IMG/VR virus record: IMGVR_UViG_3300042452_000781
Coordinates: 1-64,000 of that record
From: a virus
Length of the DNA stretch: 64,000 nt
Reading direction: 5' to 3' (one strand)
Every line of letters starts with the position of its first letter. Position 1 is the first letter of the stretch. This document shows, piece by piece, positions 4,348 through 43,856 of the stretch. Made by a program: the position numbers and the translations under genes. The notes under the pieces were generated by a model that saw nothing but the letters and a program-made list of their open reading frames with translations, did no database searches and was not told where the DNA came from.

Positions 4348-4356
4348 CTATTTAGA
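4348..4356 (-). promoter_or_regulatory. Late promoter-like TCTAAATAG upstream of the 52-aa gene
   Basis: A CTAAATA element on the minus strand about 20 bases before the ATG at 4326, overlapping the stop codon of gp20. It matches the T4-type late promoter core (TATAAATA) except for its first two bases. Confidence 0.4.
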
Positions 4357-6502
4357 TTTCTCCACCCTTGGGCATTTTAGGTTCAACCGGAACTTTACCA
4401 GATTGACCATTTATGTTATTTGCAGCCTGAGAGGCCGCTACAGGGGCTTCTGGGGTGCCTGTGGGGGGTTCTTGGGGTGCCATATTGGGATCTAACGGTA
4501 AACCCGTTTCTGGGTCAACTGGGGCATTTGGATCAGGAATAGTTCCATCCTTTATTTCCTTTTCAATCAGCCCATCTTGCTCAATAATTTCTTCATCAGT
4601 CTGGCGGAGAATTTTTCTGCGTAGATAGTCCTGAGAGAAATATCTGCCGACATATGGTTCAGCCATTGTTACCATATTCAAACGTTCGGTAAATAGCTCA
4701 GATTCTTTAAGTTCGGCAAAGTGATTATCATATAGGAAATCAAACTGAATATGTTCAGCCATTTTTTTCCAATCTTCGGGTGTCACAATATTCTTTAGTT
4801 GAAGTTGGGTTCCCAATAGATCAATAAAAAGTTGAGAAAACCTTTTGCGCAATCTTCCTACAAATTTGGTAAACTTAACTTCATCTCTTAAGATTTCAGT
4901 TGAACGGCCTAGATTGAAACCGCTATCTCCACCGATTCTAGTTTCGGGCACGTTTAGTGACTTATAGAGATTTCTTTTGAAATATTCCAAATCAGTTAAT
5001 TCGCCTAAATTACTGTTTTTGGTATAGATTCCACAGGAAAGAGCAAAAGTGTGATAGTTATGAATAGACTCATCAGAATCAATTGTTAAAGTTCCCACTT
5101 CAATTTCATCAATTAGATATTCAATATTTGTGATTGCTATATTTTCTTTTTTATGAAGGGGAATCATACTCTGTCCTACAGACAAATCCTTTGCCTCAAC
5201 AAAGCCAATATCATAAATTGGGAATTTGTGGTCGTAGGTACAAATGATGCTCTCACCATTATCAAGAGTAATTCTCATAACCTTAGCACTCTTTTGAGTA
5301 ACCCCCGCCCAAGAAATTAAGCCAGGTGCAAACTCACCAGTTGTTGGATGACAAGAATAAGTCCAAAGTTTCTTACCATCTTTCATTTCAGACTCAATCT
5401 CTGAAATTGTTAGTTCTCGTCCGTCTAGTAAAGATACTTTTGTATCCATTGCTAGACATCCCGCAGGTAAGGTATCAACTTCAGTACCTCTACCACCTTC
5501 ACGTCTAGCAAACCAATAATCTTCCATAAGACTCATAAACTTACGGGAAGTATCAACTTCGCCCGTAATATTATTGTAGTTCATCTTATTGCGATACCTT
5601 AGCATAACTTCGCGTAGGTATTGTTCAGCCTTAGGCTTCGGCATACTGCCAACATCAATATAGAAAATTCTCTTTTCTGTGCTTCGGCTAAGACGATAAA
5701 TTACGATACTATCTTCAATCATTCTAAGTTGATTGAGAATTTTAATTGCCTTATTGAGATAAGAGAGTGTGGTTCCTTTATTGCGATCAACTAATCCCGA
5801 TGTGCAATATGCAATAGATTCTTTCGTGAATCTAATTCCCTTTTCAGCACCGGCTGACATATCGGCAGAACCAACTGGATAGGATTGTTTGGGGCTGTAG
5901 ACAAAATATTCGTCCAGTTCTGGGAATGCCATTTCATTTGGATTTTGATCTTCATATAATTTTGGAGACATATTATCACGCTTTTGCTTTTTCGCTTGTC
6001 TTACAAAGCGAATTTTCATAGAATCCACATACCTAAGATCTTGAATTCCCGCATGGGGATTCTTGAAGTCAATTAGCTTATGATAATGTAGTCTACCATC
6101 AATATACCAATTTCTAAATATCTCGTGAGACTTTTTATCAAAATCTAGCATCTCAAGAATATACTTAAATTCTCTGCGAATTGAATCTTTTATACCATCA
6201 CTGGCACTAAGATTTGATAATTCAATTTCAACCGGGGAATCATTAGTATCCGAAACAATCGCCTCATTTACAATATCTTCAATTGCAGTATCAACTTCGT
6301 GATGAAGTGACATTTCACGATACCGCTTAATTAAGTCAAATTCAGTTCGGTAAACACCTTCAATGTCTACATAAGAACCAAAAAAGCCAGTGGTCAAATA
6401 ATGATCAGAGCCGTCATCATTATTTGGTGGTACTGGCGATAGTAGGTCTTTTGTTAATTTCTTAGATTCATCTTCAATAGAAAAACCAAATAATTTAGCC
6501 AT
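4352..6502 (-). CDS. gp20: Portal vertex protein gp20, interrupted by a mini-intein
   Basis: 716 codons, of which residues 349-496 are an intein, leaving a 568-residue portal protein (T4 gp20 is about 520). Extein signatures include the N-terminal YREMSLHHEVDTAIEDIVNE, the RLHYHKLIDFKNP segment, and TEVDTLPAG joining to SNLGELTDLEYFKRNLYKSL after excision, which reproduces the conserved T4-type portal core. The portal dodecamer forms the DNA entry channel at one capsid vertex and docks the gp17 motor. The gene follows gp19 as in T4. The C-terminus is Pro-rich (DPNAPVDPETGLPLDPN), as in cyanophage homologues. Without splicing the protein would carry a foreign domain in its core. Confidence 0.95.
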   Translation of the reverse strand: MAKLFGFSIEDESKKLTKDLLSPVPPNNDDGSDHYLTTGFFGSYVDIEGVYRTEFDLIKRYREMSLHHEVDTAIEDIVNEAIVSDTNDSPVEIELSNLSASDGIKDSIRREFKYILEMLDFDKKSHEIFRNWYIDGRLHYHKLIDFKNPHAGIQDLRYVDSMKIRFVRQAKKQKRDNMSPKLYEDQNPNEMAFPELDEYFVYSPKQSYPVGSADMSAGAEKGIRFTKESIAYCTSGLVDRNKGTTLSYLNKAIKILNQLRMIEDSIVIYRLSRSTEKRIFYIDVGSMPKPKAEQYLREVMLRYRNKMNYNNITGEVDTSRKFMSLMEDYWFARREGGRGTEVDTLPAGCLAMDTKVSLLDGRELTISEIESEMKDGKKLWTYSCHPTTGEFAPGLISWAGVTQKSAKVMRITLDNGESIICTYDHKFPIYDIGFVEAKDLSVGQSMIPLHKKENIAITNIEYLIDEIEVGTLTIDSDESIHNYHTFALSCGIYTKNSNLGELTDLEYFKRNLYKSLNVPETRIGGDSGFNLGRSTEILRDEVKFTKFVGRLRKRFSQLFIDLLGTQLQLKNIVTPEDWKKMAEHIQFDFLYDNHFAELKESELFTERLNMVTMAEPYVGRYFSQDYLRRKILRQTDEEIIEQDGLIEKEIKDGTIPDPNAPVDPETGLPLDPNMAPQEPPTGTPEAPVAASQAANNINGQSGKVPVEPKMPKGGEI
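5015..5458 (-). mobile_element. Mini-intein in gp20 (148 aa, no endonuclease)
   Basis: Residues 349-496 of the gp20 ORF. Block A starts with Cys1 (CLAMDTKVSLLDG). Block B is GESIICTYDHKFPI with the TxxH motif. Block F/G is DSDESIHNYHTFALSCGIY ending TKN, followed by Ser+1. The terminal Asn and the Ser nucleophile are present, but the usual penultimate His is Lys. No LAGLIDADG or HNH motif exists between the blocks, so it is a splicing-only mini-intein of class 1. It sits in the conserved TLPAG/SNLGEL motif of the portal. Confidence 0.93.
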
Positions 6503-9427: not shown

Positions 9428-12103
9428 TTAATAGTTATATTCCCAAAAATAAGAAGCGGCATCATCATTATCGGCGGAAAACCATACATTCCCGTCTTGA
9501 TCAGTTGTTCCATCTTTTGCAAGAGAAAGGTATCTTTCGGTTATTTCGGGTAAAAGTTCAACAGTTGGTGCAAATCCGAAGGGTAGACCTTCATTTTCTT
9601 CCATTTCCTTTTCATGTTCTTCTCTTATATGCTTACGAATATCAGTCTCGGTCATTTCCTTGAAATATTCTTGAGTAATAATCCACGAGAATAGAACCAG
9701 GCAGGAAACTAGATCATCGTTTTTGCCTTCTTCTGCACTGAAGCTGTTATATCTGGAAACATACGTCGTAAGCTCTCCGTAAATATCAAAATCCCTAATA
9801 ATCAATTTATCTTCTTCGATAAACTGCTTAAGATTCATACAACCTTTACTTTTCGCTGGCTTTGACATCTTGATGCCGTATTTGACACCTTTACCCGAGA
9901 AATTTTGACCAGCAATTTGACCTCCCCTGCCCAAAGTTTTAGTTTGAATTACGTTCGGATAGCCATACTCATTATGTAAAATATCGGCAACATGTGCATC
10001 ATTATTAACTTCACAAAGAACATAGGCATCGTTATATGCTCTTGCAACTGGTTCAATAACGTCTGGAAATCTTAGAGCCGGAATGTTATTATTTCTATAC
10101 TTAGCAACAACTTTATATGGTATTTGTGTGGCATCAAAAACGACAAAGGCCGAATAGTCCAATTCAACACCTTGGGCAATATCTACCGTTATTACATAGA
10201 TTCTATCGGGTTGGGGTTCATCATATACATCTAATAATTCTTGACTTCTTATTGGCGTATCTATAACCATATTGGATAGTTTTACGCCACTAATAAGAGT
10301 ATCTGAAGAGCCCAGAAAGTCGCATTCAAATTCGGCGTCCCATTTAGTTTGACCAATGTTGGCGATAGTTTCTTCTTTAAAGTGTTGGTCTCTTCCTGGA
10401 ACATCTTGCCAATAAACCCGAGTTGGAATGTATTTATTTTTTTGCTTTATTGCATCATCCCAGAGCTTATAGAATTGATTTAGGCCATTAGGCGTACTGA
10501 CAATGATAACCTTTGTGTCTTTACCTGAAGTAATAGTGGGATATACCGAACTCATAAAGTTATCTGCTACCTGTTGAGGCACGAAAGCGAATTCATCAAG
10601 AAAGATGATATTATAAGTTCCACCTCTAACCGATGACGCAGACGTGGAAGCTGCAATAATTTTGGAACCATTTTCAAGTTCCATTGATCCTTTATTCCAA
10701 GATGAAACCCCTTGCTGTAGCCACCGTGGTAGGTTTTCATATCCCGTTTGTAGTCTATTGAGAATATCTCTAGCGGTACTTGCCTTGTTTGCAAGAACGG
10801 CAATATTTACATTATCATTGAAAATTGCATAATGTAAGAGAAATGCTACTGAAGTTGTAGAGTTGTGTGTTGGAATAAATGATTTTCCGCATAAAAATAA
10901 ATGGTCATCACTGTTAACTTGAATGCAAGCAACTGGCACACTAGATACCTTTTCAATAGAATGAATATAATGTCTTTTATCTTGCGGGCGAGTTTTTTTA
11001 GTTTTATTGATTACTTCTATTTTTCTGGGTAGATTGAAAATTATTTCCTCGGTTGTAAAAGAAACAGTATAATATTCAACACCTTTAATATCTTTACTTC
11101 TTATATTTGATTTAATGCCCATAGTGGAAAGGAGTTCCACAAATTGTATAATAATTTTGTAGCTTTTTTGATAAAATTCAAAGGCTCTACTGTCACGTTT
11201 CACAGAACCATCAGAATCCATTAATCCACGAAGAAGATTTAATCTATCTTCATGTGAAGATCTCAAATAATCTTGAGGAATATGTTTATTTTTTATTAAA
11301 TTGTATTCCTTTAGTTTGGGTTGTAGGTCTTTAATTCTAAAAATTATACAATTATTGATCTCTTTTTCCGTTTCTACTTCTAAATTCGTTTTATAAAAAT
11401 TGTAGTCATCTTTATGTGATACAATTCTACTGGTATGAGAATATCCATCTCCCAACCAAAGACCTAAAAGATATGGATCTATTTTTAAATCCTTTTTTGG
11501 TAAATTGATGGAATTTGCGCTTTCAATGTATAAAGAGCCTTGGACGCCTTTACCTCTTTTATTTTCGGTTCTTCTAGCATAAATTTCACTTATTTCTCCG
11601 GTTGTAATGACTTTTTTTCCGGCACTCCAATATGAACAATTTACTTCCCATAAATGGTCGGTTGAAGATATGATCTTTTCGCCAGTATCAAAGGTAATCT
11701 CATAACAATCGTGGTCATACATCGTTTCAGTTTTAGAAATAACAGAAACAATATTTCCAGATTGTGAAAAAACTTTGTCGCCAAGTTTAATTTCACCCAT
11801 TGTCGTCCAACCATTTACGGTTGGAATAGGTGTATCTAGAGAAAATGGCTTACCACTTTGGCGAGGGAGTAGGCATATATTAAAACGGTTATTCTGAAAG
11901 GACTGCATCATCCTCTCTTGAAAAGGAAACATTGCAAAAGGCTGTAACCCGTGGTCAAGGGTTACAATTTTCATATAATTCTTTGCAAAATAAACCGGAT
12001 CAACACTACATTTTGCCAGTTCTAGATATTGCTCTTCTGTTAAGTTAACTTTGGTATATTCTTTTTTTAAAAGGGGATTACCAAGATAATGTTCTTCAGC
12101 CAT
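9428..12103 (-). CDS. gp17: Terminase large subunit gp17, interrupted by an intein
   Basis: 891 codons; residues 86-414 are an intein, leaving a 562-residue terminase. The ATPase part has Walker A LLPRQSGK joined to STTS after splicing, Walker B NIIFLDEFAF (D503, E504 in the precursor) and the coupling motif IVSTPNGLNQFYKLW. The C-terminal nuclease has the acidic residues in VITVDIAQGVELDYSAFVVF, VLCEVNNDA and KNDDLVSCLVLF. It is the motor that translocates and cuts concatemeric DNA while docked on gp20. The gene lies between the 515-aa structural gene and gp18. The unspliced protein has no intact P-loop, so ATPase activity should depend on splicing. Confidence 0.96.
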   Translation of the reverse strand: MAEEHYLGNPLLKKEYTKVNLTEEQYLELAKCSVDPVYFAKNYMKIVTLDHGLQPFAMFPFQERMMQSFQNNRFNICLLPRQSGKPFSLDTPIPTVNGWTTMGEIKLGDKVFSQSGNIVSVISKTETMYDHDCYEITFDTGEKIISSTDHLWEVNCSYWSAGKKVITTGEISEIYARRTENKRGKGVQGSLYIESANSINLPKKDLKIDPYLLGLWLGDGYSHTSRIVSHKDDYNFYKTNLEVETEKEINNCIIFRIKDLQPKLKEYNLIKNKHIPQDYLRSSHEDRLNLLRGLMDSDGSVKRDSRAFEFYQKSYKIIIQFVELLSTMGIKSNIRSKDIKGVEYYTVSFTTEEIIFNLPRKIEVINKTKKTRPQDKRHYIHSIEKVSSVPVACIQVNSDDHLFLCGKSFIPTHNSTTSVAFLLHYAIFNDNVNIAVLANKASTARDILNRLQTGYENLPRWLQQGVSSWNKGSMELENGSKIIAASTSASSVRGGTYNIIFLDEFAFVPQQVADNFMSSVYPTITSGKDTKVIIVSTPNGLNQFYKLWDDAIKQKNKYIPTRVYWQDVPGRDQHFKEETIANIGQTKWDAEFECDFLGSSDTLISGVKLSNMVIDTPIRSQELLDVYDEPQPDRIYVITVDIAQGVELDYSAFVVFDATQIPYKVVAKYRNNNIPALRFPDVIEPVARAYNDAYVLCEVNNDAHVADILHNEYGYPNVIQTKTLGRGGQIAGQNFSGKGVKYGIKMSKPAKSKGCMNLKQFIEEDKLIIRDFDIYGELTTYVSRYNSFSAEEGKNDDLVSCLVLFSWIITQEYFKEMTETDIRKHIREEHEKEMEENEGLPFGFAPTVELLPEITERYLSLAKDGTTDQDGNVWFSADNDDAASYFWEYNY
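10862..11848 (-). mobile_element. LAGLIDADG intein in the gp17 P-loop, class 3 features
   Basis: Residues 86-414 (329 aa). The element begins with Pro (PFSLDTPIPTVNGWTTMGEI), not Cys, Ser or Thr. Block B is STDHLWEV, with Trp152 two residues after His150; block F is VACIQVNSDDHLFL with Cys393; block G is SFIPTHN with Thr412 and terminal Asn414, followed by Ser+1. The Trp-Cys-Thr set is the hallmark of class 3 inteins, which use the block F Cys as first nucleophile. Two LAGLIDADG motifs (YLLGLWLGDG at 211-220 and LLRGLMDSDG at 290-299) mark a homing endonuclease domain. Insertion is between Lys and Ser of the Walker A GKS. Confidence 0.93.
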
Positions 12104-42841: not shown

Positions 42842-43476
42842 AAACTTTTGACCAGTTTATAAACGAGGCTAAGCACGGCCCCCGTAGCTCAAAGGAACGA
42901 AGACAGCAAAGAGGCGAGAATTTATCAAAAATTCTAAAACGGAGAATGGGAACTAGAGCCAAAATTCGTGGTGGAAGCGATGAACATATTCACACCACTT
43001 CAGATCCTGATGATGTTTCAATAGAAATTAGAAAATATAAAAATCCAGCACATTATGCTGCAGGTGAAACCCCAAAGGTCAATACTATTAATGGAAAAAA
43101 TGTAGTCGTTAAAAACTCAGAAAGAGCGTTTAAGGCAAATCAGCTAAGAAAACAAATAACCAAAAATCGTAGAAACCCGAAAGGAACCGTATTCACTACT
43201 GATATTGTCCCAAATTTAGAAAGAGGACATGGTGATTTTGAGAACATTAAAAAGAGAACTCAAAATCTTAAAAAGGCTGTTGGAAATGTTCCAAGAGAAA
43301 TTAAAAAAGCCGGAGGAAAGTCTGGTGATGTTGTTATTGGAAAACCCGGTCAAACTCAAAGTGGCGGTCCAGAAAAAGCCGGAAGAAATTCCAGGGCTAA
43401 GTTATATAAAAAGCTACTTCCTAATGCCAGTAAAATGAACCCCGTTACAAATCGTATGATGGGTAAAGTAGAATGA
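42838..43476 (+). CDS. Basic candidate internal head protein with capsid-targeting-like N-terminus
   Basis: 212 residues. The N-terminus MKTFDQFINEAKHGPR closely resembles the capsid-targeting sequence of T4 internal proteins (MKTYQEFIAEA), and I-N-E/A fits the gp21 protease rule ([LI]-x-E before A/G), predicting removal of ten residues. The rest is very basic and Lys/Arg-rich (KERRQQRGENLSKILKRRMG), which suits packing with DNA. No enzyme motif is evident. It overlaps both neighbours by ATGA. Packaging and injection with DNA are inferred by analogy. Confidence 0.78.
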   Translation: MKTFDQFINEAKHGPRSSKERRQQRGENLSKILKRRMGTRAKIRGGSDEHIHTTSDPDDVSIEIRKYKNPAHYAAGETPKVNTINGKNVVVKNSERAFKANQLRKQITKNRRNPKGTVFTTDIVPNLERGHGDFENIKKRTQNLKKAVGNVPREIKKAGGKSGDVVIGKPGQTQSGGPEKAGRNSRAKLYKKLLPNASKMNPVTNRMMGKVE

Positions 43477-43856
43477 AGACATTTGAAGAATTTCTGAATG
43501 AGGCAAATCAACCAAAATCCGATGCCCTAAAAACTATCAGTAAAAACTGGGAAAGAAGACCAAATTATAAGGGAGTCAACGTATATGCAACTCAAAATAA
43601 AGACCACATAAGAGTTCACGACTTATTTGTGCCGTCTCATTTGAGGGGCAAAGGTGTTGGTGGTAGAGTTATGAAAGGAGTTACAAGATTAGCAGATAAA
43701 CAGGGCTCCAAAGTATCTTTAAATCAGGCCCCGGCTCCAGGTTATAAGAAAAAGTTAGACACATTTTATAAGAATTTTGGTTTTAAGTCTAATAAAGGAA
43801 GAAATAAAGACTTTACAACAAGAGATACACATATCAGGCAACCAAAAGATAAATAA
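43473..43856 (+). CDS. GNAT-like acetyltransferase with capsid-targeting-like N-terminus
   Basis: 127 residues starting MKTFEEFLNEANQPK, again a T4 internal-protein-like leader with the gp21-type site L-N-E/A after residue 10. From about residue 35 it follows the GNAT pattern: a beta strand HIRVHDLFVPSHL, the acetyl-CoA loop RGKGVGGRVM ([RQ]-x-x-G-x-G), the helix KGVTRLADKQG, and a C-terminal YKNFGFK that resembles the GNAT FYxxxGF motif. It is short for the family but has the core. The sequence suggests an acetyltransferase delivered in the virion, comparable in logic to T4 Alt; the target is unknown. Confidence 0.8.
   Translation: MKTFEEFLNEANQPKSDALKTISKNWERRPNYKGVNVYATQNKDHIRVHDLFVPSHLRGKGVGGRVMKGVTRLADKQGSKVSLNQAPAPGYKKKLDTFYKNFGFKSNKGRNKDFTTRDTHIRQPKDK

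Follow-up and report, generated by a model that had tools for sequence, protein, structure and literature searches.

Inteins in the large terminase subunit (TerL) of phages have been described previously (PMC5050341, PMC5259590). In mycobacteriophages, TerL1-a to -e and TerL6-f lie in TerL ATPase domains, with TerL1-a inserted between the Lys and Thr of the P-loop and TerL1-c, -d, and -e placed in a class 3 tree, and endonuclease activity was shown for two mycobacteriophage TerL inteins (PMC5050341). The TerL inteins of the Klebsiella jumbo phages RaK2 and K64-1 have also been noted (PMC5259590). Class 3 inteins are defined by Trp at B:12, Cys at F:4, and Thr at G:5, i.e., the WCT set (PMC5222942), and 1,701 of them have been counted, 82.5% with LAGLIDADG motifs (PMC7891396).

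Here, we analyzed a stretch of 64,000 nucleotides (the window) of a viral source record of 64,581 bases, itself a fragment. A sequence-only reading had proposed a class 3 LAGLIDADG intein inside the Walker A loop of the terminase, and alignment, motif census, and structure comparison agreed on this assignment. The intein lies in a TerL ATPase domain like the mycobacteriophage inteins, although these belong to other TerL families (PMC5050341).

Borders, domains, and splicing class of the terminase intein

The minus strand of the window carries a T4-like structural block according to PHROG (portal, tail sheath, TerL, small terminase, sheath stabiliser, and head closure), and Synechococcus myoviruses were the nearest relatives of TerL and portal among the matches listed. 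The TerL C-extein was 55 to 57% identical to phage records (the 40 listed of 2,622 matches), with two records at 60 to 80%, and the portal matched that of phage B23 at 70% identity, the alignment falling into two pieces with a joint coverage of 79%. Judged from these sequences, the phage is T4-like and cyanophage-like. The window is mostly minus-strand coding, and a small GNAT-type acetyltransferase gene (Pfam, about 5e-6; positions 43473-43856, plus strand) sits in a short plus-strand cluster. A tRNA scan of the window gave no match. The features of the terminase gene are as follows.

9428-12103, minus strand: large terminase gene (TerL, T4 gp17 type), 891-aa precursor (ORF; Pfam Terminase_6N and Terminase_6C; PHROG terminase large subunit; T4 gp17 3ezk, E 1.2e-75)
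11849-12103, minus strand: N-extein, TerL residues 1-85, last residues RQSGK of Walker A (alignment to relatives)
10862-11848, minus strand: class 3 intein, 329 aa, Pro1-Asn329 (phmmer, alignment, motif census, predicted fold)
11624-11848, minus strand: N-terminal splicing domain, blocks A and B, intein residues 1-75 (ungapped phmmer match to 6rix/6bs8; alignment), with Cys48 (11705-11707), His65, and Trp67 (11648-11650)
10994-11497, minus strand: LAGLIDADG homing endonuclease domain, residues about 118-285 (Pfam LAGLIDADG_3; predicted fold aligned to PI-SceI)
10862-10975, minus strand: C-terminal splicing domain, blocks F and G, residues 292-329 (phmmer; alignment), with Cys308 (10925-10927), Thr327, His328, and Asn329
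9428-10861, minus strand: C-extein, first residue Ser+1, completing Walker A as S-T-T (alignment to relatives)

The intein splits the Walker A loop between Lys85 and Ser415, RQSGK/S (slashes mark insertion sites), and the junctions read LPRQSGK(85)/PFSLDTPIPT and FIPTHN(414)/STTSVAF. In a sequence alignment, TerL proteins of relatives without the insert were joined exactly at GK/ST, which rules out a misread junction. The sequence-only reading was therefore accurate as to the borders and as to the P-loop being cut between Lys and Ser; likewise, the first residue is Pro, and Trp152, Cys393, Thr412, and Asn414 of the precursor (intein residues 67, 308, 327, and 329) are each at the position given.

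A phmmer search of the intein against PDB sequences gave 7.9e-21 to the class 3 DnaB intein of 6rix, and mycobacterial class 3 DnaB inteins were the closest solved structures by sequence. The alignment to 6rix was gap-free over intein residues 3-70 and again over 295-329, so that positions 48, 65, and 67 coincide with the numbering of the mycobacterial class 3 DnaB intein. Trp67, Cys308, and Thr327 aligned to the WCT set of 6bs8/6rix; position 1 has no Cys, Ser, or Thr nucleophile (Pro1), and Ser+1, the block B His (His65), and a C-terminal His-Asn (His328-Asn329) are all present. No class 1 architecture was found in the alignment, a Cys or Ser nucleophile at position 1 being absent. The endonuclease domain contains two LAGLIDADG motifs, YLLGLWLGDG and LLRGLMDSDG, both with acidic residues, and matched Pfam LAGLIDADG_3 at E 6.5e-11 (whole protein). 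Among Pfam models, no Hint match was above the cut-off (Hint_2, E 0.12), and NCBIfam gave matches solely far under its cut-offs.

A HINT fold was seen in the predicted model alone. The AF2 model of the intein, built from 13 sequences, had a pLDDT of 93.4 and a pTM of 0.91, and its splicing half superimposed on class 3 6bs8 with Z 21.8 and an rmsd of 1.4 A over 127 of 127 residues, on 6rix with Z 21.2, on the fungal Prp8 inteins with Z 18.4 and 18.1, and on the class 1 gp41-1 intein with Z 17.5. The whole predicted intein aligned to PI-SceI with Z 26.3 over 316 residues. The class is decided by the motifs. Although the fold is consistent with class 3, the ranking by fold is not sufficient to assign the class, because the atypical class 3 AceL NrdHF intein (Z 14.9) scored below both Prp8 and gp41-1.

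Related inteins were found at 26 loci in IMG/VR, and 734 of 50,697 phage records matched the intein, 513 of them over at least 80% of its length. We aligned 32 sequences (the window, 14 from IMG/VR, and 17 from phage records, 4 near-duplicates having been dropped beforehand), in which Cys308, His65, and Asn329 were invariant, Thr327 and His328 were present in 31, and Trp67 was present in 29 (Asn in L123 and L125, Phe in L130); Cys48 was found in 24 of this set, part of which was fetched by a pattern containing Cys48. A census was therefore based on a bait alignment of the endonuclease and C-terminal half, avoiding selection by the N-terminal half, and on the best 80 loci each from IMG/VR and a genome collection, with column 48 blanked in the reading profile. 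Both splicing halves were seen in 152 of the 160 loci, and 8 were without one half. Trp, Cys, Thr, His65, and Asn occurred in all 152, although the 100% conservation of Trp, Cys, and Thr is partly circular, since Cys and Thr were in the bait and Trp was in the profile. Cys48, which was in neither, occurred in 124 of the 152 (51/78 viral and 73/74 from the genome collection). In the same column, the class 1 intein gp41-1 has Ser, and the portal intein of the window (see below) has Val by a weak alignment. The +1 residue was Ser in 82, Thr in 65, and Cys in 5, and 98 of the 152 relatives were inserted at GK/S or GK/T.

Further inteins at the Walker A site and in the portal

Four contigs (L016-L019, with three distinct TerL sequences) carried two class 3-type inteins in one open frame, at sites three codons apart and separated by Cys-Gly-Lys alone. 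In L016, the twin inteins are located as follows.

L016:3001-3441: upstream mini-intein, 147 aa, class 3-type, between Gln and Cys of RQ/CGK
L016:3451-4431: downstream endonuclease intein, at K/S

In a fifth contig, L015, which is cut at its end, the tail of the upstream intein adjoins the downstream one. The upstream mini-intein has the WCT set, and its penultimate His is replaced by Met or Ile. It was found alone in eight loci (L386 and L388-L394); examples of loci with only the downstream intein are the window, B23, and L136. Site states were tallied over 124 rows, 104 loci having been dropped for lacking both TerL flanks and some contigs being counted twice (L113 and L115 repeat that of L019): neither site was occupied in 61, the downstream class 3 site only in 41, both class 3 sites in 5, and the upstream site only in 5, with a class 1 split intein in 10, an unsplit class 1 intein in 1, and one other row (L118, ECD7, an alignment offset). 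All four site states exist; therefore, the upstream and downstream inteins are independent elements with exact borders. An AF2 prediction of the twin-intein stretch of L016, from four near-identical sequences, was of low confidence (pLDDT of 42.7 and pTM of 0.26) and was set aside. Closely spaced sites have been reported for TerL1-a and TerL1-b, which lie one residue apart (PMC5050341), and neighbouring MCM inteins have been described (PMC10643990).

Besides, more inteins were seen elsewhere in the same TerL genes, namely, in L011 and L016 (VVS/TPNG), L021 (before CEFLGS), and L026 (GKS/C), giving up to three inteins per terminase. The third intein of L016, in VVS/TPNG, starts with Cys and ends with Gln.

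The K/S site was also found to hold an intein of another class. L037 and L038 have an identical TerL core protein (248 residues) and exteins that are 94 to 98% identical in DNA, whereas the site is occupied by a class 3 intein in L037 and by a class 1-type split intein in L038. Sister-phage pairs with TerL C-extein proteins 97 to 98% identical differ at K/S, either as class 3 versus class 1 split or as class 3 versus empty, and such pairs constitute a natural experiment on homing elements competing for one site. The split inteins are as follows.

L038:1047-3000 (contig shared with L292): split intein, Cys1 and 38-aa N-part in one ORF, 115-aa C-part in another
L294-L302, L304, L305, L307, L308, L316, and L317: split inteins at GK/S or GK/T with a DUF559-type match between the halves

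Between the halves in L038 lies a TnpB-family gene (Pfam OrfB_IS605, 2.7e-26; Cas12f1-like_TNB, 1.7e-26), adjoined by a short remnant of the usual DUF559-type nuclease. A takeover of a homing element by TnpB is possible in L038. A search with the split-intein C-part yielded 29 loci, 18 of which show both halves beside the TerL N-flank; in 15 of these, the halves flank a stretch matching the L039 nuclease ORF (Pfam DUF559), one is the TnpB case, and two (L303 and L314) are unsplit or nearly so. The nuclease of L039 is presumably VSR-like, and TerL inteins whose halves flank a nuclease gene go by the name AceL-TerL.

A profile scan of the window's frames yielded a second hint-like match, in the portal gene.

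5015-5458, minus strand: second intein of the window phage, class 1-type mini-intein, 148 aa, Cys1...Lys-Asn/Ser, in portal gp20 (ORF 4352-6502) (gap in T4 gp20 alignment; match to bacterial intein-like domain)

There were 62 IMG/VR loci related to this portal intein; the sizes, available for 56 of them, were 438 to 459 nt in 22 and larger in 34 (mostly about 1.4 kb). For TerL, the state could be read at 14 of these loci and was mixed (6 empty, 4 class 3, and 4 class 1 split). Portal and TerL inteins are therefore gained and lost independently of each other, and this speaks somewhat against a joint gate on packaging.

Probable homing, mobility, and the proposed packaging gate

The insert is very probably a selfish homing intein of class 3 in the TerL of a T4-like, cyanophage-related phage: its anatomy, homology, and class signature point to this, as do the predicted fold, the intact motifs of the endonuclease, the exact empty sites of relatives, and the patchy distribution. 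We infer its splicing, cleavage, and kinetics as follows. The TerL gene would be translated as one inactive 891-aa precursor, in which the block F Cys308 would attack the Lys85-Pro1 bond, as Pro1 is incapable of doing so; the N-extein would then be passed to Ser+1, Asn329 would cyclise, and ligation of the exteins into RQSGKSTT would restore Walker A. This splicing reaction is probably constitutive and fast. At the level of DNA, an intein-free TerL gene would be cut at its P-loop codons by the LAGLIDADG domain, whereupon the intein would be copied in by recombination. An intein at this site, where the Walker A Lys of a large terminase is followed by Ser/Thr, is hard to lose, since any removal that is not exact would break the motor.

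The distribution fits such a homing cycle. The site was empty in 68 of 118 loci having both TerL flanks, although this figure is not a prevalence, as some contigs are counted twice and TerL and intein baits are mixed. Among 85 distinct TerL cores, 53 were empty, 31 had the class 3 intein, and 1 had the twin inteins, and occupancy required at least seven changes on this tree; the TerL trees are quick ones, without bootstrap and with long branches, and because the intein served in part as bait for collecting their tips, they likewise give no prevalence. The occupied L050 was placed among empty sisters, its C-extein DNA being 91.2% identical to that of the empty L052, and its intein was nearest those of L136 (75%) and L139 (74%) among 15 loci, the respective TerL cores being 73% and 64% identical. 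TerL and intein identities were correlated over the 105 pairs of these 15 loci (Spearman 0.45); thus, much of the inheritance may be vertical.

As judged from its motifs, the LAGLIDADG endonuclease looks intact. The endonuclease dN/dS was 0.12 to 0.20 in five pairs including the window (several with dS >1) and 0.12 to 0.22 in seven pairs without L014, but this is weak evidence of endonuclease selection, because L014, with its broken LAGLIDADG motifs, gave 0.17 to 0.18 in two pairs and because many dS values are near saturation. In L014 itself (L014:2133-3098), the splicing residues are intact and both motifs are broken (SDW and DLSG), which points to endonuclease decay; loss of the motifs with the splicing residues kept is what the homing cycle predicts.

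A dead insert that no longer splices and leaves the terminase broken is very improbable: the source record is a fragment, but the gene is one open frame of 891 codons with all catalytic residues kept, and the intein is 99.7 to 100% identical in three other contigs. It is just as hard to credit that class 1 or class 2 chemistry operates instead of class 3. The same-site relatives L004 and L011 do start with Ser, and Cys, Ser, or Thr was at position 1 in 6 of the 152 census relatives by a crude reading; against this, the same reading gave Ala (93) or Pro (25) in 118 of the 152, position 1 is Pro here, Cys308 is kept throughout both sequence sets (32/32 and 152/152), and the best-matching solved structures are of class 3. 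A class 1/2 assignment was thus rejected on the motifs and the sequence match.

It can be soundly inferred that the unspliced motor has no complete P-loop, and the precursor should not bind ATP properly. From this, the sequence-only reading had suggested that splicing could act as a posttranslational gate on packaging, an idea already published for the TerL of cyanophage Mic1 (PMC7156551). In such a scheme, splicing would be held until conditions permit, e.g., by a Cys48-Cys308 disulfide under oxidation, and motor assembly and packaging would wait. Indeed, Cys48 and Cys308 correspond in position to the Cys48-Cys118 pair of the M. smegmatis intein DnaBi1, whose disulfide forms on oxidation and stops splicing (PMC6195587), and Cys48 is frequent in the census. 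However, all DnaBi1 Cys48 mutants tested lost splicing (PMC6195587), so that conservation of Cys48 may reflect catalysis or fold; the residue is absent in 27 of 78 phage relatives and in 8 of the 32 sequences first aligned. In addition, close sister phages, like most of the TerL cores in the tree, are without the intein, and five terminase inteins "spliced readily" (PMC5050341). A regulatory gate is therefore very improbable, and nothing found here supports that step of the sequence-only reading. We give equally little credence to a wider version, in which inteins in TerL and in the portal, two parts that dock, keep the packaging machine inactive, the oxidative state licenses packaging via Cys48-Cys308, and the P-loop is a regulatory hot spot; inteins of unrelated kinds (class 3, class 1 split, and twin class 3) would then have entered it time and again because an interruption there is of use, and not only because it is hard to lose. 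Cys48 was termed "non-conserved" in the DnaBi1 paper (PMC6195587), and its wide presence in class 3 inteins makes the redox-switch idea testable beyond mycobacteria.

Comparison with known systems

The TerL intein of Synechococcus phage B23 (MN695335, gp267; family Kyanoviridae) was 62% identical over query residues 2-329 and, like that of the window, occupies a Walker A site (Lys/Thr) in a T4-like TerL. It differs in its first residue, Ala, and in its Walker A, RQCGK, and its feature table says "terminase" with no intein noted. The inteins in the gp17-type TerL of the Klebsiella jumbo phages RaK2 and K64-1 and of the Krischvirus coliphage ECD7 were 35 to 38% identical; those of RaK2 and ECD7 lie at RQxGK/T and have, like that of the window, the WCT set and LAGLIDADG motifs, with Met at position 48 in RaK2. 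The class 3 DnaB inteins of M. smegmatis (6bs8) and M. chimaera (6rix) share the WCT triplet, the His65/Trp67 numbering, Cys48, and the THN end, and in structural alignment they were 33 to 35% identical to the predicted splicing fold of the window (rmsd 1.4 to 1.9 A), whereas they are mini-inteins without endonuclease in another host protein, DnaB. The split TerL inteins of sister phages share the GK/S or GK/T site but differ by being split and by their Cys1 (class 1 type).

TerL inteins at GK/T are thus already known, and the window intein is a further example, ordinary for phage terminases. It provides an entry to a richer system, in which a short Walker A stretch of T4-like TerL has two class 3-type sites, and the greater novelty lies around it: the twin class 3-type sites, the class replacement at one site, the TnpB inside a split intein, and the portal intein.
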